Shown here piece after piece: positions 15,221 to 25,237 of a DNA stretch of 37,012 nucleotides. The position numbers and the translations under genes were made by a program. The stretch is taken from positions 1 to 37,012 of the forward strand of contig RFNG01000149.1 of assembly GCA_009927275.1 (NCBI GenBank), read 5' to 3'. The notes under the pieces are model-generated. The model did not search any database and was not told the origin of the DNA. It worked only from the letters and a program-made list of their open reading frames with translations. Position 1 is the stretch's first letter; each line of letters begins with the position of its first letter. The DNA comes from Sphingobacteriia bacterium. GTDB taxonomy: Bacteria > Bacteroidota > Bacteroidia > B-17B0 > Aurantibacillaceae.

Positions 15221-15652
15221 TTAGGCTTTTAAACTATCTAATTCTTTTTGAGATAATGAGTTTATGCCTTTATACTTAATTTTTTCAAGAATATCATCAA
15301 TACCAATCAAATTTAAAACCACATCATTAACATATACTAAAAACTCAGAATCTAATTCAAATGGGTATTCTCCAAAATAAATGGATTTTGTTATATCTCT
15401 TATTTCATAAATAATATTGTATTGGTGTATTACATCAGTAATATACTTTAAAGCTATTTCATCAATAACTATTATAATACTGTTTTTATTATTTGGATCA
15501 TAAATTACTCTACAATATTGGATACTGTCCTGAACTTCTTCGGGCATGTGTTGAAGATTTTCATCTGATGAAAAATAATTATCTAATACTTCTAAATCGT
15601 CTTGTGAGTTAAACACAGTAAACAAAAACGGAATTTTTTTTTCGTTGCTCAT
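15221..15652 (-). CDS. Hypothetical protein, AT-rich orphan with DUF6576-like C-terminal motif
   Basis: I do not recognise this 143-residue acidic cytoplasmic-looking protein. It has no signal peptide and no membrane segment. The carboxyl end, about 120-143 (IDDILEKIKYKGINSLSQKE), resembles the short DxILDKIxxxGxxSLTxxE motif found at the ends of many Bacteroidota proteins, for example rhomboids and the DUF6576 tail. The ATG at 15652 is chosen over one at 15685, which would add 11 residues. Base composition is unlike its neighbours: 14 G+C in 15301-15360, against 28 in 16981-17040 within sufB. It stands alone between two non-coding stretches of about 230 bp. Recent acquisition or relaxed selection is possible, but no mobile-element gene is nearby. 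Confidence 0.65.
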   Translation of the reverse strand: MSNEKKIPFLFTVFNSQDDLEVLDNYFSSDENLQHMPEEVQDSIQYCRVIYDPNNKNSIIIVIDEIALKYITDVIHQYNIIYEIRDITKSIYFGEYPFELDSEFLVYVNDVVLNLIGIDDILEKIKYKGINSLSQKELDSLKA

Positions 15653-15685
15653 AACCTTTATTTCTAATGAAAATTGGCGAATCAA

Positions 15686-15911
15686 ATAATGTGTAAATTA
15701 TTCGTAAACATTAAGGTATTTCTATTAATATCGATTAAAATATCATTTGTAAGAAATAAAATGCAATAAATTATATCATTTTAACTAAAACAAAAAATCT
15801 AACCTGATTTGTATTTGTTAGTATACCATAAATAGGGTATTTTTGTATAAAATTAGAAACATTCTAAATAAGCCAATTAATTAAAAATATATAACTGAAA
15901 TACAACAAGTT
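15686..15911. other. AT-rich intergenic region containing the suf promoter
   Basis: No coding potential is seen. The left part should hold the orphan gene's promoter, which I could not locate. The right part holds a strong promoter for the suf operon at 15814-15845 and a leader of about 60 bp. A short palindrome overlaps the promoter. Confidence 0.6.
15814..15845 (+). promoter_or_regulatory. Promoter of the suf operon with overlapping palindrome
   Basis: TTTG at 15814-15817, a 20-bp spacer and TATTTTTG at 15838-15845 match the Bacteroidota TTTG / TAnnTTTG promoter exactly. The palindrome ATACC-8 bp-GGTAT at 15823-15840 covers the spacer and the first bases of the -7 element, where a repressor could bind. 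It does not match the longer E. coli IscR type 1 site in spacing. The predicted start is near 15852, about 60 bp before sufA. Confidence 0.7.
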
Positions 15912-16238
15912 ATGATTAGCATTTCGCAAGAAGCCTTAGTTCACGCACAGCAGTTAATGCGTGATGAACAATGTCCGGATGGAACTTTTATTAGGGTGGG
16001 GGTTGAAGGTGGTGGTTGTTCGGGTTTAAGCTACAAACTCACCTTTGATCAAACACTTCAAGATGGTGATCAGCAATTTGAAGACAAAGGGCTTAAAATT
16101 GTATGCGACCGAAAGAGTTTTTTATACTTAGTTGGCACTGAATTGCAGTACAGTGGTGGATTAAACGGAAAAGGTTTTGTTTTTAATAATCCCAATGCAT
16201 CACGCACCTGCGGCTGTGGGGAAAGTTTTTCGCTTTAA
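15912..16238 (+). CDS. sufA: SufA/IscA-type iron-sulfur carrier protein
   Basis: This 108-residue A-type carrier has the three invariant cysteines: C36 in GGGCSGLSY, and C100 and C102 in TCGCGESF at the carboxyl end. A-type carriers receive a cluster from the SufBCD scaffold and pass it to client proteins. It is the first gene of the operon, begins about 60 bp after the predicted transcription start, and ends 2 bp before sufB. The ErpA or SufA subtype cannot be told from sequence alone; the operon position favours SufA. Confidence 0.95.
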
Positions 16239-16240
16239 AC

Positions 16241-17695
16241 ATGAGCCAAGATGTATTAGAGTCGCATGTAAACAGCGAATACAAATGGGGATTCAGCTCT
16301 GATGTAGATGCAGAAACCTTTCCCAAGGGTTTAAATGAGAGTGTGGTGCGCGCACTCAGTGCAAAAAAACAAGAACCGCTATGGTTGTTAGAATACCGAC
16401 TCAAGGCTTACCGCCAGTGGTTAAACATGAGCCCCCCCCATCATTGGGCTAATTTTAAATATCCCCAAATAGATTTTCAAAACATCAGTTATTATTCAGC
16501 ACCAAAAAAATTACCCAGTTTAAAAAGTTTAGACGAGGCAGACCCCGAACTTTTAAAAACATTTGAAAAACTTGGTATTTCACTTGAAGAACAAAAACGC
16601 CTTACGGGGGTAGAATCGCAAATAGCTGTAGATGCTGTATTTGATAGTGTTTCAGTAAAAACTACGTTTCGTGAAACCTTAGCTGAAAAAGGGATAATAT
16701 TTTGTTCGTTTTCAGAGGCCGTACAAGAGCATCCGGAACTTATAAAAACATATTTGGGTTCTGTAGTGCCGGCATCCGATAATTATTTTTCTGCTTTAAA
16801 TGCTGCGGTATTTAGTGATGGCTCCTTTTGTTATATACCCAAAGGTGTAAGGTGCCCCATGGAATTGTCCACGTATTTTAGGATAAATGCTCAAGGCACC
16901 GGACAATTTGAACGCACATTAATAGTTGCCGATGAAGACAGCTACGTATCCTACCTTGAAGGGTGTACAGCACCCCGACGTGACGAACATCAATTGCATG
17001 CAGCCGTTGTAGAAATTGTTGCCCATACCCGTGCTGAAGTTAAATACAGTACGGTTCAAAATTGGTACCCGGGCGATGCCGATGGCAAAGGAGGGATATT
17101 TAATTTTGTTACTAAACGTGGAATTTGTTTGGGAGATCATGCTAAAATCAGCTGGACGCAGGTTGAAACGGGATCTGCCATTACGTGGAAATATCCATCC
17201 GTAATTTTAAAAGGTCATAACAGTATTGGTGAATTTTATTCAGTGGCAGTAACCAATAACCATCAGCAAGCCGATACAGGTACTAAGATGATTCATATTG
17301 GAAAGCATACGCGAAGCACCATTATTTCAAAAGGTATAAGTGCAGGTAAAAGCCATAACAGTTACCGCGGTTTAGTTCAGGTGCGTCGCGGTGCTTCACA
17401 GGCCCGCAACTTTACACAATGCGATAGTTTACTTATGGGAGATCAGTGCGGTGCGCACACATTTCCGTATATAGAGCTAAAAGATTCATCCGCAATTGCT
17501 GAACATGAAGCCACTACAAGTAAAATTGGTGAAGATCAGTTGTTTTATTGCCGCCAAAGGGGTTTAGATCCGGAGCAGGCTGTAGCGCTGATTGTAAATG
17601 GGTATTGTAAAGATGTGCTTAATAAATTGCCAATGGAATTTGCCGTTGAGGCCCAAAAATTATTATCAATTAGTTTAGAAGGCAGTGTGGGCTAA
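16241..17695 (+). CDS. sufB: Fe-S cluster scaffold protein SufB
   Basis: This full-length SufB has 484 residues. It has YSAPKK and the amino domain, [40 protein letters not shown], and the conserved core [12 protein letters not shown], followed by [17 protein letters not shown]. SufB is the scaffold subunit of the SufBC2D complex that assembles clusters from SufS/SufE sulfur. The TQCD cysteine and the EHEATTSK glutamate are the conserved assembly residues. It is 2 bp after sufA. Its last 11 bp overlap the start of an unexpected membrane glycosyltransferase gene in place of sufC. Confidence 0.97.
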
Positions 17696-19397
17696 TTTAT
17701 CATATGCAAAATTGCCTGCATCCGTAATACTTAGTATTTCGTTGGGTATGATTTGGATTTTAACCTTTCAAAAGTACCCTTTAAATGTACTTTCAGGTGA
17801 TGCGGCCGATTTTTACGCACCTTTAAAATCAATATTTATACAGGGCGATTTTTTACACCAAGAGGGAACATCCAATCTTATTTTACATGGCAGGGATGGC
17901 ACGTATAATGTTCATACTGTTGGATTGGCAATTTTATGGTTGCCATTTTTTGCCTTGGCATCAGGGTTTAGTTATTTATTGCAATCGCCTTTAAACGGCG
18001 ATTCAATAGTTTATCAAGTTTCAGTTATCATTGCAGCAACATGTGCATTATGGTTTGGCATTTTGGCCACTTATAAATTATTACAAGGTTTAAATTTTTC
18101 AGAATTTACGTGTAAGGCTACGTGTGTGTGTTTAATTATGGCCACACACCTAATGTATTATACCTGGGCCGAGCCCGGCCTGTCGCACGTATATGCGTTT
18201 GCCCTTATAGCATGGGTATTGTTTATCAGTTATAAGTTAGCTTTTGATTATACTGCACATTTGATTATTTATTGGTTTTTTGTTTTAGCCGTTCTTGTTT
18301 TGTTAAGACCTTTTCACATATTATGGGCGTTTACACCTTTTTTTTGGAATACGTCACCGGCATATATTCGGAAGCTTTTTTTTAACCGGCATGCACTGAT
18401 GGGTTTACTGGTGTTTATAATTGTAGTTTCAATTCAGGCTTTGGTGTGGTACCTGCAAACCGGAAGTATTTTTAAAGACACCTATCCAGCAGACGGATTT
18501 TATTTTTCAAATCCGCAGCTATTTAAATTTTTATTTCATCCACAGGCCGGATGGTTATTATACATTCCTTTTATGGGTGTATGTTTTTTGGGCTGGCTGG
18601 CGCTTGTATTTAAAGATTTAAAACAGTTTGGAATTGCCTTTTTGTTTTTACTGCTTTCCATATACATTCTGGCTTCTTTTTGGGCATACAATTATTTTGA
18701 CGGTTGGGGTGTTCGAATAATGGTAGATTACGCACCACTTATGGCTATTGGTGGTGCAAAGATATTAGACGGGCTGGCTTTTTATTTTAAAAAAATGATG
18801 TGGCGGCGCCTCCTGTTGCTGCCTTTTATAACCTGGAATATTTTATTTACATACCAAGCGCAGGCTGGAATTATACCCCGAACCGGAATGACAGTTTCAC
18901 AATTTAAATATGTATTTGCAAAAACACAATCCAAATTTGCAAATACGCTTGGCGGTTGGCATGAACCAACGCCGTATTTAAAAAATAAAGCTAAAGCACT
19001 TTTTGCCGACTCATTGCAGCCGGCCTCAAACGAACGTTTAAATTTCTGGGAGTATACACCTGCAATAAGCCATGAATTACGTGACGCCTCAAACCGTTTA
19101 GTTATAAATTTTAATATTGCACGAACCGAACCTGTTTGTGGCAATAGCAACAAAGCATTGCTTTGTGTCGTGGTAAAACGTCCCGGAGTACCCTCTCCAG
19201 TGTATTACACGCAAACATTTCTTAATGAAATTCCCAACGATAGCACATTTAAATTCTATCAATATTCACAATCGTTTTGTGGTGCCTTTAATTCCGGCGA
19301 TTGCGTTTCAGCGTATGTGTGGAATTTTGAACATAAGCGCTTTGTTGTTACTAAATTTAAGATTCAAATTTTTTCCTATGCCTATGACATCTCCTAA
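17685..19397 (+). CDS. GT-C fold membrane glycosyltransferase (RgtA/B/C/D-like), inside suf operon
   Basis: This 570-residue polytopic protein has ten or more hydrophobic segments over residues 10-385, then a mostly soluble end (about 420-570). The first loop has an acidic pair (GDAADFYAP; then QGDFLHQEG), as in lipid-phosphosugar GT-C enzymes. [56 protein letters not shown] and [11 protein letters not shown] follow. This series matches a broad bacterial family with RgtA/B/C/D-like glycosyltransferase domains. Such enzymes use polyprenyl-phosphate sugars at the outer face of the inner membrane. The GTG start overlaps sufB by 11 bp; an in-frame TTG at 17697 is an alternative. The end overlaps sufC by 20 bp. 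No link of this family to Fe-S assembly is known to me. Acceptor and sugar are unknown. Confidence 0.82.
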
Positions 19398-20157
19398 CCC
19401 TCCTTTTTTACTTTCAGTAAATCAATTACATGCCGGCATTGAAGACAAGCCAATTTTAAAAGGCATTGAACTTAAAATTAAACCTGGTGAAGTACACGCT
19501 ATTATGGGCCCCAATGGTTCTGGAAAGTCAACATTGTCAAGTGTTTTGGCGGGTCACCCCCAATACACTGTAACCCGGGGCGAGGTTTGGTTTAACGGAA
19601 AATCGTTACTAGAAATGGAACCCGAAGTCCGTGCCCGTGAGGGATTGTTTTTAGCATTTCAATATCCTGTAGAACTGCCAGGCGTTAGCATGACTAATTT
19701 TATGAAAACCGCGCTTCAAGAACAATACCTTCACCAGGAGCGCGAACCCTTAAATGCAAAATCGTATTTGGCCTATCAAAAGCAAAAGCAAGCTGAGGTG
19801 CAATTAGATTCCCGTTTAGGCAGCCGTTCTGTTAATGAAGGATTTAGCGGGGGTGAAAAGAAACGTAATGAATTATATCAAATGGCCATGTTGCAGCCAA
19901 AACTAGCTATATTGGATGAAACCGATTCGGGCTTAGATATTGATGCCTTAAAAATTGTGGCACAGGGTGTTAATGCCTTACGTTCTCCAGACCGTTCGTT
20001 TTTAGTAATAACCCATTATCAACGCCTATTAGAATATATTGTACCAGACGTGGTACATGTTTTGTATAATGGCGTAATTGTTCAAAGTGGTGATGCTGCT
20101 TTAGCTCTAGAACTGGAAAAACATGGATATGATCCAATAAAAGCACGTTTTCAATGA
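19378..20157 (+). CDS. sufC: Fe-S cluster assembly ATPase SufC
   Basis: SufC is the ABC-type ATPase of the SufBCD scaffold. The 259-residue protein shows Walker A GPNGSGKS (44-51), the SufC-specific signature GFSGGEKKRNE, Walker B LAILDETDSGLD, and the H-loop ITHYQRLL. The start is at MPMTSP (19378) or the second ATG at 19384. A longer in-frame reading from 19225 was rejected because the extra residues are just the glycosyltransferase gene read in another frame. It overlaps that gene by 20 bp and sufD by ATGA, so the operon is translationally continuous in spite of the insertion. Confidence 0.97.
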   Translation: MPMTSPNPPFLLSVNQLHAGIEDKPILKGIELKIKPGEVHAIMGPNGSGKSTLSSVLAGHPQYTVTRGEVWFNGKSLLEMEPEVRAREGLFLAFQYPVELPGVSMTNFMKTALQEQYLHQEREPLNAKSYLAYQKQKQAEVQLDSRLGSRSVNEGFSGGEKKRNELYQMAMLQPKLAILDETDSGLDIDALKIVAQGVNALRSPDRSFLVITHYQRLLEYIVPDVVHVLYNGVIVQSGDAALALELEKHGYDPIKARFQ

Positions 20158-21407
20158 GTTTAACTGTTTTAGATTCTTCACAACGTTTAACGGATGTGCT
20201 TCAAAACGAACATCGTAAGGTAATGTATGTGCAAGATTCTATCTTAAGCACCTGCCTTCAGGTTATCAGCCATGATGGCTTACCCACTGCCAAAAATGAA
20301 TGGTACAAATATTGCCCGCTGGCTCAATTATTGCGTATTCCGTTAACAGAACTTAGGCAAGAATTTAAAGCACCTATACTGGATGCTACAGCGTTAAGGT
20401 CAGACCTTGAACTGCACATATTAAACGGTATTTTACAAATTCCAAATGCATTACCTGAAGGCATTGCCATATATAATTTTTCAGATCCCCTTGCCACTCC
20501 CTTAAATTTAAACACAAATCCATCGTATTTAGAAGCACTTAATATTGCTTACGCTCACGATGCATATCAAATACATATTTTACCCAATGCCCCCGAAAAT
20601 GTACGTATACATGTGAGGTTTGCTCAAGAGGGCCAATCATCAACCTGGGTAAATACACGTTTACAATTACATATAGCCTCGGGAAAACGAATTCAGTGTG
20701 TTGAAGAATTTTGTTCCATACAAGGTGCCCATGCCGTTTTAAATTATTTTTCAGATTACATTTTGCATAACAATGCCGAATTACATCATACGATAATTCA
20801 AGAAAGTGGTGCTCAAGGATATCACATACAACACCGCAACGTTATACTTAACGAACAAGCAAATTACCAAGCCCTAACTTTTGTAGCCGGTGTCTCACTT
20901 GGACGCTTTGATCATGTTTTATGCTTTAAAGGCCATTCAGCCTCTGGAACCCTACGCGGATTAAGCCTGGTAAACCCGCAAGAATGCATTGATCATCATA
21001 CGCGAATGCAACATGAGGTGGCACATACACAAAGTAATCAAATGTATAAAAGCCTGGTTGCGAATAAAGGTACAGCAGTATTTAACGGTGTAATTCATGT
21101 ATTACCTCATGCTCAAAAAACAGATGCATATCAAAGTAGTAAAAACATGTTACTGGGAGAAGATGCGCAATGTTTTACCAAGCCACAACTTGAAATTTTT
21201 GCAAACGATGTTAAATGTTCACACGGTACATCCACCGGCCACATGGACCCTCAAGCTTTATTTTATTTACAAAGCAGAGGTATAGGTAAAAAAGAGGCGC
21301 AGCGCTTGCTACAAGATGCTTTTGCTTTAGAACTTATTAGACAGCATGATGCAACAGAAATTGCTGATTACCTTGAACATAAATTGAATTCACAATGGCT
21401 TCAATAA
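20154..21407 (+). CDS. sufD: Fe-S cluster assembly protein SufD
   Basis: This 417-residue SufB paralogue completes the SufBC2D scaffold. The carboxyl half has the family's beta-helix run and FANDVKCSHGTSTGHMDPQ, which holds the conserved Cys-Ser-His corresponding to E. coli C358/H360. FYLQSRGI and KEAQRLL follow. The amino third is divergent, as is usual for SufD. It begins by ATGA overlap with sufC and overlaps sufS by 13 bp. Confidence 0.95.
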   Translation: MSLTVLDSSQRLTDVLQNEHRKVMYVQDSILSTCLQVISHDGLPTAKNEWYKYCPLAQLLRIPLTELRQEFKAPILDATALRSDLELHILNGILQIPNALPEGIAIYNFSDPLATPLNLNTNPSYLEALNIAYAHDAYQIHILPNAPENVRIHVRFAQEGQSSTWVNTRLQLHIASGKRIQCVEEFCSIQGAHAVLNYFSDYILHNNAELHHTIIQESGAQGYHIQHRNVILNEQANYQALTFVAGVSLGRFDHVLCFKGHSASGTLRGLSLVNPQECIDHHTRMQHEVAHTQSNQMYKSLVANKGTAVFNGVIHVLPHAQKTDAYQSSKNMLLGEDAQCFTKPQLEIFANDVKCSHGTSTGHMDPQALFYLQSRGIGKKEAQRLLQDAFALELIRQHDATEIADYLEHKLNSQWLQ

Positions 21408-22624
21408 ACGATATACGCGCTGCTTTTCCATATTTTTCGCAAGGCCCAGGCGCTACCGGTTATGTGTATTTGGATAATGCAGCTACCACTCAAAAACCAT
21501 TTGCAGTGTTAGAGGCCATGAATCAGTTTTATATACATTCATGTGCAAATATTCATCGCGGGGTTCACCGATTGAGTCAATCGGCCAGTATTGCATTTGA
21601 AGATGCGCGCGGAACTACCGCACAGTATTTTGGAGTAAATAATCCGCAGCAGATTATTTTTACATCAGGCGCAACAGAAAGTATTAATTTACTGGCACAG
21701 GGTCTTGCAAAATCACATTTAAAACCGGGTGATTCCATTATGTTGAGTGTACTGGAACATCATGCTAATTTTTTACCCTGGCAGGAATGGGCACATGCAC
21801 ATCAGGGCACATTAAAGACCCTGCCGCTTACTTCAGATTTTGAAATCCATTGGCCTGAGCTTGAATCGCACTTTAAATCGGGTATTGCACTACTAAGCAT
21901 AACGGCTGTTTCAAACACTTTGGGTATTCGGTTGCCGCTTGAGCAAATTATAAATATGGCCAAACGTTATGGCGTACCGGTATGTATTGATGCTGCACAG
22001 TTAGCTGCACACCAATACATGAACTTGGATACATTACAGCCCGATTTTTTAGTTTGTAGTGCTCATAAATTATATGGTCCAACAGGAACAGGTATACTGT
22101 ATTTAGCCCCATCATGGTTAAATTCCTTACCCATAAGTAAAACCGGAGGAGGCGCCATAAGCAAGGTAAGCTGGGAAAAAACCGAATATGTTGATGGCGC
22201 TTTGCGTTATGAGGCCGGTACCCCAAATATAGCCGGCGTTTTAGGTTTTGCTGCGGCTTTAAAAAAGTTGCAGCAATGGGATTTAGCAACTTGCGAAAAA
22301 CACGAACAGCAATGCTTAAACTATTTAGAACAGCAACTTATCCAAATACCAGAAATCATAGTTTATGCTCAGGGTAAGCCTAAAATAGGTTCCTTATCCT
22401 TTAATGTAAAAGGACATCATGCTTTTGACGTTGGAAGTTTTTTAGATCGTTATCAAATTGCAGTTCGAACCGGTCACCATTGCACCCAACCACTAATGAC
22501 GCACCTTAATGTTTCGGGAACCATCAGAGTTTCTGTAGGAATTTATACGAGTCAGGATGATATTAATGCTTTTATTAATGCTCTAAAAAAAACCTTGGTT
22601 CATTTACTAAAATACCATGCCTGA
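21395..22624 (+). CDS. sufS: Cysteine desulfurase SufS
   Basis: This PLP enzyme takes sulfur from cysteine as a persulfide and hands it to SufE. The 409-residue protein is a group II (SufS/CsdA) desulfurase. YLDNAATTQKP lies near the start, HHANFLPWQEWA and IDAAQLAAHQ follow, and the PLP lysine is in VCSAHKLYGPTGTG. The active cysteine is in VRTGHHCTQPLM, the short-loop group II form. It overlaps sufD by 13 bp and sufE by 8 bp. Confidence 0.97.
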   Translation: MASINDIRAAFPYFSQGPGATGYVYLDNAATTQKPFAVLEAMNQFYIHSCANIHRGVHRLSQSASIAFEDARGTTAQYFGVNNPQQIIFTSGATESINLLAQGLAKSHLKPGDSIMLSVLEHHANFLPWQEWAHAHQGTLKTLPLTSDFEIHWPELESHFKSGIALLSITAVSNTLGIRLPLEQIINMAKRYGVPVCIDAAQLAAHQYMNLDTLQPDFLVCSAHKLYGPTGTGILYLAPSWLNSLPISKTGGGAISKVSWEKTEYVDGALRYEAGTPNIAGVLGFAAALKKLQQWDLATCEKHEQQCLNYLEQQLIQIPEIIVYAQGKPKIGSLSFNVKGHHAFDVGSFLDRYQIAVRTGHHCTQPLMTHLNVSGTIRVSVGIYTSQDDINAFINALKKTLVHLLKYHA

Positions 22625-23027
22625 AACACCGGAATTAATTGCCGAAACTATTGTACAGGAGTTTTCAGAATTTGGAGACGACTGGACTTTGAAATATGAG
22701 TTTTTAATGGAACAGGCGATACATTTAGAGCCTTTTCCAGATACGTACCGATTGGATGCGTTTTTGATTCCCGGCTGTCAGAGCCAGGTTTGGTTAGCTG
22801 TTGAACGTACAGAAAATCGGTATCATTTTTTTGCCGATAGCGATGCACTCATTACAAAGGGGATGATTGCCTTGTTATTACGTGTAGTACAAGATCAAAC
22901 CGCGGCTGCCATTTCTGCCACATCTTTTGACTACATTACTAAAATTGGATTTCACAACCAATTGAGTCCAACCCGCGCTAATGGACTACGAAGTATGATA
23001 CAGCGTATAAAACAAACTGTTGTTTAA
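22617..23027 (+). CDS. sufE: Cysteine desulfuration protein SufE
   Basis: SufE accepts the persulfide from SufS and carries it to SufB. The 136-residue protein has the acceptor cysteine in FLIPGCQSQVWLA and the family pieces YEFLMEQA, ITKGMIALLLRV and LSPTRANGLRSM. It overlaps sufS by 8 bp and ends one base before the ATG of the DUF59 gene. Confidence 0.96.
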   Translation: MPETPELIAETIVQEFSEFGDDWTLKYEFLMEQAIHLEPFPDTYRLDAFLIPGCQSQVWLAVERTENRYHFFADSDALITKGMIALLLRVVQDQTAAAISATSFDYITKIGFHNQLSPTRANGLRSMIQRIKQTVV

Positions 23028-23028
23028 C

Positions 23029-23358
23029 ATGCCAGCAATAATAATAACGGAGCACACCGACATAATGCAACGGGTTATTGATGAAATAAAAACCTGTTTT
23101 GATCCAGAAATTCCGGTTGATATTTGGGAGCTGGGCTTAATATACGAGCTGCATTTAAATAATGATTTTAATTTAGAAGTTGTAATGACGCTAACGTCAC
23201 CTAATTGTCCTGCAGCCGAAACATTACCTGCCGAGGTAGAACAAAAATTAAAACTGCTACAAAATATTGCATCGGTAAATTTAAAGTTAACGTTTGAGCC
23301 CCCTTGGGAAAAAGAAATGATGAGCGAAGTTGCCCAGCTTGAACTTGGATTTATGTAA
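23029..23358 (+). CDS. sufT: SufT-like DUF59 (MIP18 family) Fe-S assembly factor
   Basis: This 109-residue DUF59 protein has DPEIPVDIWELGLIYEL and the conserved cysteine motif TSPNCPAAETLP. Stand-alone DUF59 proteins (SufT) assist Fe-S protein maturation and are commonly placed at the end of suf operons. I chose the ATG at 23029; the frame can be extended to a TTG at 23020 inside sufE, but this adds only three residues. The amino end (PAIIITEHTDI) is a short extension before the domain. It is the last gene of the operon and ends 25 bp from a convergent gene. I see no strong terminator between them. Confidence 0.9.
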   Translation: MPAIIITEHTDIMQRVIDEIKTCFDPEIPVDIWELGLIYELHLNNDFNLEVVMTLTSPNCPAAETLPAEVEQKLKLLQNIASVNLKLTFEPPWEKEMMSEVAQLELGFM

Positions 23359-24520: not shown

Positions 24521-25237
24521 TTAGTTTGAAGTACGGCTTAAACTGTAAATAACCAATCCAAAACCAATCTTGTTGATAGCATCGGCAATATTGTAAACAA
24601 TATCCATTGCATGTGAAGCCGCCGCAGGATCACTTACAAGTTGTAATCCAAATAATCCGCCAGGGGTTCCTAAAATATATCCAAGAGGATAAATAGCCCA
24701 GCCTACTAATACAAACCATGAAAGTACGCGGTTTGCTTTAGCCACATCTGCGCCGGCTTGTTGCGCCAATTTAGACACCTCACCAAACCAAATTAAATAT
24801 ACAATATAAAAGTATGCTGCACCTGATATAACACCCCACATTACACTACTATCACGATCAATGGTTTCTCCAAAATATCCCGTTACCAACATCACAATAG
24901 ATGCCGCAATTAAATTACGTAGCAAACTGATTTTTGCACCAGCCTTTTTAGTGATTAAATAAAATTCAACGCACATTAACGGCACGGTTAAAATCCAGTC
25001 TACATATCTAAAAAATGTAGGTGATTCGCCGGTTTCTAAATTGTATCCGCGCATATAATAATAATGCACAGCTGCAATAAAGGTGATTAAACCTGAAACC
25101 AATACCGAAGTACGCCATTTTGCAGGTGTGGTATTGAGTTCAAAGAAAAAGAACACAGAGGCGGCCATCATAGCCATCGTTCCAATAAAGAACGTAAACG
25201 CGACATAATTATCGCTTGCAATTTTTAAACTTTCCAT
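24521..25237 (-). CDS. Proteorhodopsin, green-tuned proton pump
   Basis: This 238-residue seven-helix microbial rhodopsin carries a retinal on K223 (ADAINKIGFG in helix G). Helix C is RYVDWILTVPLMCVEFYL: D80 is the proton acceptor (PR D97), T84 matches T101, and E91 is the proton donor (PR E108). This is the DTE motif of outward proton pumps. M88 is at the spectral tuning position 105, and Met or Leu there means green absorption. H58 matches PR H75, which stabilises the acceptor. G135 in helix E aligns with BR W138 / XR G156, leaving the opening through which a carotenoid antenna can bind. It is monocistronic: a terminator follows, and no blh or carotenoid genes are in the window. The start codon lies in an inverted repeat (25235-25273). 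Confidence 0.97.
   Translation of the reverse strand: MESLKIASDNYVAFTFFIGTMAMMAASVFFFFELNTTPAKWRTSVLVSGLITFIAAVHYYYMRGYNLETGESPTFFRYVDWILTVPLMCVEFYLITKKAGAKISLLRNLIAASIVMLVTGYFGETIDRDSSVMWGVISGAAYFYIVYLIWFGEVSKLAQQAGADVAKANRVLSWFVLVGWAIYPLGYILGTPGGLFGLQLVSDPAAASHAMDIVYNIADAINKIGFGLVIYSLSRTSN

Follow-up and report, generated by a model that had tools for sequence, protein, structure and literature searches.

Enzymes of the GT-C superfamily, among them ArnT, ALG12, and PglB/AglB, have their catalytic place at an invariant Asp directly after the first membrane helix. Mosaic operons with inserted or displaced genes are known, as are polysaccharide loci that are exchanged through conserved flanking genes. 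The suf operon in the window analyzed here (the whole stretch of 37,012 nt) can be compared with each of these. As in mosaic operons, an unrelated gene, that of a predicted GT-C-type membrane glycosyltransferase (GT), is inserted into a conserved operon and has a discordant tree; unlike in them, one junction of a core operon has been filled repeatedly, with the same cargo recurring across genera. As in exchanged polysaccharide loci, the position of a putative glycan gene is held by conserved neighbors, but in the suf case this is a single gene in a housekeeping operon, and exchange may have gone through the flanks. The GT itself is like the GT-C enzymes in its predicted membrane fold and in an invariant Asp behind the first helix; unlike them, it is too distant for a Pfam match and has a C-terminal beta domain of its own. 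No description of a sufB-GT-sufC arrangement was found in the open literature at the level of titles and abstract openings. A search combining LA_3751, Leptospira, and glycosyltransferase found no paper in the open literature covered, and the available parts of the matches listed for S23, GxxExxY, mosaic operons, and operon insertion held nothing specific.

The window corresponds to contig 12 in a 165-contig genome assembly of 2.29 Mb. It contains a complete suf operon (15912-23358; Table 1) in the order A-B-[GT]-C-D-S-E-T, as the initial annotation had it, with sufA, sufD, sufS, sufE, and sufT identified by Pfam and with SufB, SufC, SufD, SufS, and SufE encoded in one direction. Only SufB, SufC, SufD, and SufT were also run against NCBIfam; the first three scored above their cut-offs, and SufT below its own (TIGR02945, 125.3 bits vs. 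143.4). The GT gene was likewise found as described, an intact frame of 570 codons between sufB and sufC that overlaps the first by 11 bp and the second by 20 bp. The latter figure is counted from ATG 19378, the sufC start that fits its homologues; a second ATG lies at 19384, and the ORF listed at 19225-20157 is simply the longest frame of sufC. The idea that such tight overlaps mark a special coupling was not borne out. In this compact operon the later suf genes overlap too (by 4, 13, 8, and 8 bp), so those around the GT are not special, and relatives mostly have short spacers there instead. Further along the window, a 238-aa frame on the minus strand (24521-25237) resembles a microbial rhodopsin by eye.

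Table 1. Genes of the suf operon in the window, the candidate catalytic motif of the GT, and second GT-C genes at the sufB-sufC junction of other loci.
Feature	Coordinates	Strand	Remarks
sufA-type carrier gene	15912..16238	+	First gene of the operon; Pfam
sufB	16241..17695	+	Upstream neighbor of GT; final 11 bp shared with GT start; Pfam and NCBIfam
GT-C-type membrane glycosyltransferase gene (GT; predicted)	17685..19397	+	GTG start; 570 aa; no internal stop
GDAADFY, codons 38-44 of GT	17796..17816	+	Right behind the first helix; consensus GDAKDYY; candidate catalytic loop
sufC	19378..20157	+	Downstream neighbor of GT; opening 20 bp shared with GT end; Pfam and NCBIfam
sufD	20154..21407	+	Pfam and NCBIfam
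sufS (cysteine desulfurase)	21395..22624	+	Pfam
sufE	22617..23027	+	Pfam
sufT-like	23020..23358	+	TTG start; Pfam FeS_assembly_P above cut-off, NCBIfam below
Second GT-C gene	L226 1838-3277; L227 4434-5873	sufB direction	sufB-sufC junction
Second GT-C gene, PMT_2 family	L059 5329-6789	-	sufB-sufC junction

The GT appears to have some 10-11 membrane helices in its N-terminal part (residues ~9-410), followed by a C-terminal beta domain (~430-565). In a 20-row alignment of its family 53 columns are invariant, with G38, D39, and Y44 of the motif in Table 1 unchanged in 20/20 rows. D39 fits the conserved acidic residue expected in the first outer loop of a GT-C enzyme, where it would have a catalytic role. 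At the level of sequence families the relationship is faint. The window protein matched no Pfam family at E <= 0.1 and does not reach the gathering cut-off of PMT_2, which is taken here to correspond to the label "RgtA/B/C/D-like". Five of the 20 alignment rows, all of them relatives, match PMT_2 weakly; eight match DUF6541, and 17 match NF047440 (LA_3751/LA_3752 putative glycosyltransferases) at E <= 0.01. The window GT resembles this last family weakly over residues 115-392, but with 16.7 bits against a cut-off of 200 it is not a member. At the sequence level, the family profile matched no PDB chain at E <= 1.

The fold was compared on an AlphaFold2 model (pLDDT 79, pTM 0.80). Aligned with VIA-align, this predicted structure gave Z scores of 20-25 to known GT-C enzymes over residues ~5-400: 25.5 to ALG12 (rmsd 3.6, 342 aligned), 21.1 to ArnT (rmsd 4.1, 344 aligned), and about 22 to archaeal and yeast oligosaccharyltransferases. 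The C-terminal part resembles jelly-roll-type beta domains (Z about 9), matches that may reflect only a common arrangement. On the predicted structure, the best reading of the window protein is a GT-C glycosyltransferase. Of the earlier designation as an "RgtA/B/C/D-like GT-C" protein, the GT-C fold is thus upheld by the model, and the more specific label has indirect support from the weak PMT_2 matches of relatives.

Some indication of function comes from homologues outside suf operons. In G051, a genome from the class sample described below, the homologue (L232 6594-8339, minus strand) lies among Glycos_transf_2, asparagine-synthase-type, and Glycos_transf_1 genes, which points to glycan assembly for this GT relative rather than to Fe-S chemistry. 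The surroundings as a whole resemble a polysaccharide cluster. Three neighborhoods of more distant homologues were also scanned, and one of them (L236) has an adjacent polysaccharide-synthesis protein. The other two have none: the neighbors at L233 are Lgt, radical-SAM, and DUF6798 proteins, and L239, the window genome's own GT paralogue, is next to a TonB-dependent receptor.

The arrangement recurs in related genomes. A profile search of 87 genomes of the order found the GT family in 32, in every case adjoining sufB and/or sufC. Full-length matches of at least 596 bits account for 31 of these, the next score being 313 bits, and a fragment at a contig end (G013) for the other. In 27 carriers the gene is between sufB and sufC on one contig; five are cut by a contig end and touch one or the other, with a piece of the other flank visible in two (G025 and G077). 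Two carriers (G077 and G081) have a second gene of ~1.4 kb between GT and sufC. Away from suf, the search found no full-score member of the family within the order. For the wider class an even sample of 395 genomes was surveyed. Here the same arrangement was seen once beyond the order, in G429, and G051 has its close homologue away from suf. Of 20 homologue loci checked outside the order one is beside suf, a count that covers about 1.5 kb on each side and leaves out 23 further match rows. Genome records were also scanned with two peptide patterns of the family, and 24 of the 25 loci found are beside suf; all 25 records are labeled as MAGs, almost all of them carry the name Bacteroidetes or that of a member group, and many apparently duplicate the genomes searched by profile.

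The sufB-sufC junction is not reserved for this gene. Among 82 loci of the order it is occupied by the GT in 32, by an S23/four-helix-bundle gene in 15, and by some other gene in five; it is empty in 28 and could not be read in two. Among the 80 readable genomes, sufB and sufC are adjacent in 28 and separated by non-GT cargo in 20. The five other occupants comprise one gene each of the ORF6N and RhuM+Fic types, a hydrolase of the BD-FAE type carrying a secretion-tail domain (two genomes), and a GT-C gene of the PMT_2 family (G022). This second kind of GT-C gene is the sole occupant in G022 and follows the window-type GT in G077 and G081, and a profile comparison detected no relation between the two families (probability 1%). 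Outside the order, a GxxExxY/PDDEXK_3 gene was found at the junction; 19 of the 20 class loci inspected there could be read, and seven of these had an occupant, which in G429 is the GT.

Other junctions of the operon are filled less often. By genomes, sufB-sufC is occupied in 48/77 (nearer 49/77 on a recount, G077 being occupied with 3163 bp), compared to 17/75 for sufA-sufB, 7/72 for sufC-sufD, 4/63 for sufD-sufS, 2/40 for sufS-sufE, and 6/33 for sufE-sufT; the sufC-sufD and sufD-sufS values are nearer 6/72 and 3/63, since the large gaps of G087 and G090, respectively, are unconfirmed by the other count. With GT carriers removed, occupancy of sufB-sufC is 20/48. These are counts of genomes and not of independent events, with the other suf junctions as the only control. 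Of 105 frames called in suf junctions just two, both short and doubtful, are opposed to the operon direction.

Across this order, S23, Fic, RhuM, ORF6N, and nucleotidyltransferase-like genes recur as interruptions of the suf operon (for example at L066, L065, L062, and L178). S23 genes number 113 in 40 genus genomes, at least 14 of them within suf junctions, against an expectation of ~0.3 that is estimated from the operon's share of the genome and applies to related, not independent, genomes. By this estimate S23 (PF05635) genes look roughly 50 times over-represented in the operon, a figure that includes shared descent. In an S23 tree viewed by eye, with support unstated, copies from the same junction of different genera cluster, such as the sufA-sufB copies of genera g1 and g33. 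At ten loci the sufA-sufB junction holds a ~156-aa frame (e.g., L070 1020-1490, in sufB direction) that looks nucleotidyltransferase-like by eye and has no match in Pfam or NCBIfam.

Taken together, these distributions are read, with moderate confidence, as those of a glycan-assembly passenger that occupies an insertion-prone position in the core suf operon and has been kept there mainly by descent with some exchange. The empty or unrelated junctions in 48/80 genomes of the order favor such a passenger. On its predicted fold, the GT would be an integral-membrane enzyme moving a sugar from a polyprenyl-phosphate donor, most likely to a glycan or lipid of the cell envelope at the outer face of the inner membrane. 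Its orientation and spacing make transcription and translation together with suf probable, and it would take no part in Fe-S assembly. Its fixed position would go back mainly to an old insertion that has since been inherited and repeatedly lost again. The discordant tree indicates that, at least once, a copy from a different genus was acquired at this junction or replaced the resident one, for which recombination within the conserved neighboring genes is a plausible route. Two features of the distribution count against a passenger. The restriction of the GT to suf at full score within the order would not be needed if the passenger were purely neutral, and the use of one junction by two GT-C families without detectable sequence relation might point to a function that favors this site.

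How far descent alone would suffice can be judged from the trees. GT carriers are scattered over many branches of the suf tree (101 genomes; SufC fragments of < 180 aa were omitted, leaving SufA and SufB alone in those cases), on which GT presence requires 15 parsimony changes vs. a mean of 27.8 in 500 shuffles (minimum 21). Presence is thus clustered, yet with repeated gain or loss. Clustering of this kind fits purely vertical inheritance, in which a single insertion older than the order was followed by many losses and refillings and the tree conflicts stem from old paralogues or fast evolution; so does the GT tree, to the extent that it mostly follows genera. Imposing the suf topology on the GT is nevertheless rejected (898 log units worse, AU p 2e-57), and a further case against descent alone is G090 of genus g33, whose GT groups, at 100% support, with those of the g1 genomes G035 and G062. 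A tree that keeps it within g33 is 181 log units worse (AU p 1.4e-8). For G090, these comparisons give good support to an exchange of the GT across genera without a change of junction, and an old duplication with loss may be an alternative; full-score paralogues elsewhere in the order, which old duplications might have left, are missing from the profile search. The flanks are more accommodating to descent: neither sliding-window identity nor a comparison of the 150 bp at each end of sufB and sufC revealed a clear donor or recombination tract in G090 or G429.

G429 and G051 differ in this respect. With outgroups included and each tested apart from the other, a position outside the order is allowed for the GT of G429 (22 log units, AU p 0.15), which groups with genus g30 (92%), and rejected for that of G051 (108 log units, AU p 0.002), which pairs with G060 (100%). 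The first result is in keeping with vertical inheritance and the second is against it. The G429 gene may have been inherited from before the order or transferred, and the G051 copy, by its tree position a relative of that in G060, is at another place. All in all, descent with no exchange is considered unlikely, if the most serious of the alternatives to a passenger that was sometimes exchanged.

Whichever way it arrived, the GT gene seems to have been maintained. In six pairs (G019-G021, G006-G019, G006-G021, G074-G075, G007-G025, and G012-G034) its dN/dS is about 0.05-0.11, compared to 0 to about 0.016 for SufB; the ratios are rough in the four pairs with dS of at least 0.9, and four further pairs were dropped because dS of the GT was saturated, among them G077-G081, for which the SufB value is also an artefact. 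By these estimates the gene is held by purifying selection while evolving much faster than suf. Its GC content (37.5%) and GC3 (32.9%) are like those of its neighbors and give no sign of recent arrival. With its presence in 32/87 genomes, this agrees with the initial view of a stable insertion that is neither recent nor accidental.

Signals of expression were sought over 15600-20300 by simple consensus matches, which are not decisive. Promoter-like sites are at chance level (14 vs. 15.5), the best on the plus strand (11 of 12) being inside the GT at 17882-17909. Terminator-like sites exceed shuffles (10 vs. 4.4, sd 2.1), and six of them are plus-strand sites within the GT frame: 17926, 17952, 18536, and an overlapping trio at 18800-18823. 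Given these internal sites, a single message for the whole suf operon is not certain.

The GT may gain a regulatory benefit from suf control. The stronger proposal is a functional coupling, in which the gene has been retained so that envelope glycan synthesis tracks iron or redox status with the suf promoter as sensor. That all 32 carriers within the order, and G429 from a different one, have it in the same position would be explained in this way, along with the purifying selection and the presence of a second GT-C family at the junction in three genomes; 28 genomes of the order do with sufB and sufC adjacent and 20 with unrelated genes between them, and the glycan role of the GT is itself a prediction. 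A special link of the GT to Suf, as first envisaged, is weakened by these empty or differently filled junctions and by the overlaps found throughout the operon, and coupling of this sort is regarded as unlikely.

A recent accident or an assembly join at the GT borders, which the 165 contigs of the window genome might bring to mind, is ruled out by the same arrangement in 32 genomes of the order, with intact frames and with identical gene order both in a 4.6 Mb genome on a single contig (G001) and in a two-contig genome (G030).

A glycan-assembly passenger kept mainly by descent remains the preferred reading. Another reading, quite unlikely as matters stand, would make the sufB-sufC junction of these Bacteroidota a standing exchange slot, through whose conserved flanks different lineages would trade expressed cargo, envelope glycosyltransferases being favored, so that surface glycan traits would vary from lineage to lineage and be expressed under suf control. 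More generally, the locus cautions against inferring function from operon membership, since a gene long kept within a core operon has relatives in which the same slot is empty or holds something unrelated. If the slot is truly exchanged through its flanks, it would offer a testable route for the spread of single genes among uncultured lineages, with a promoter already in place.
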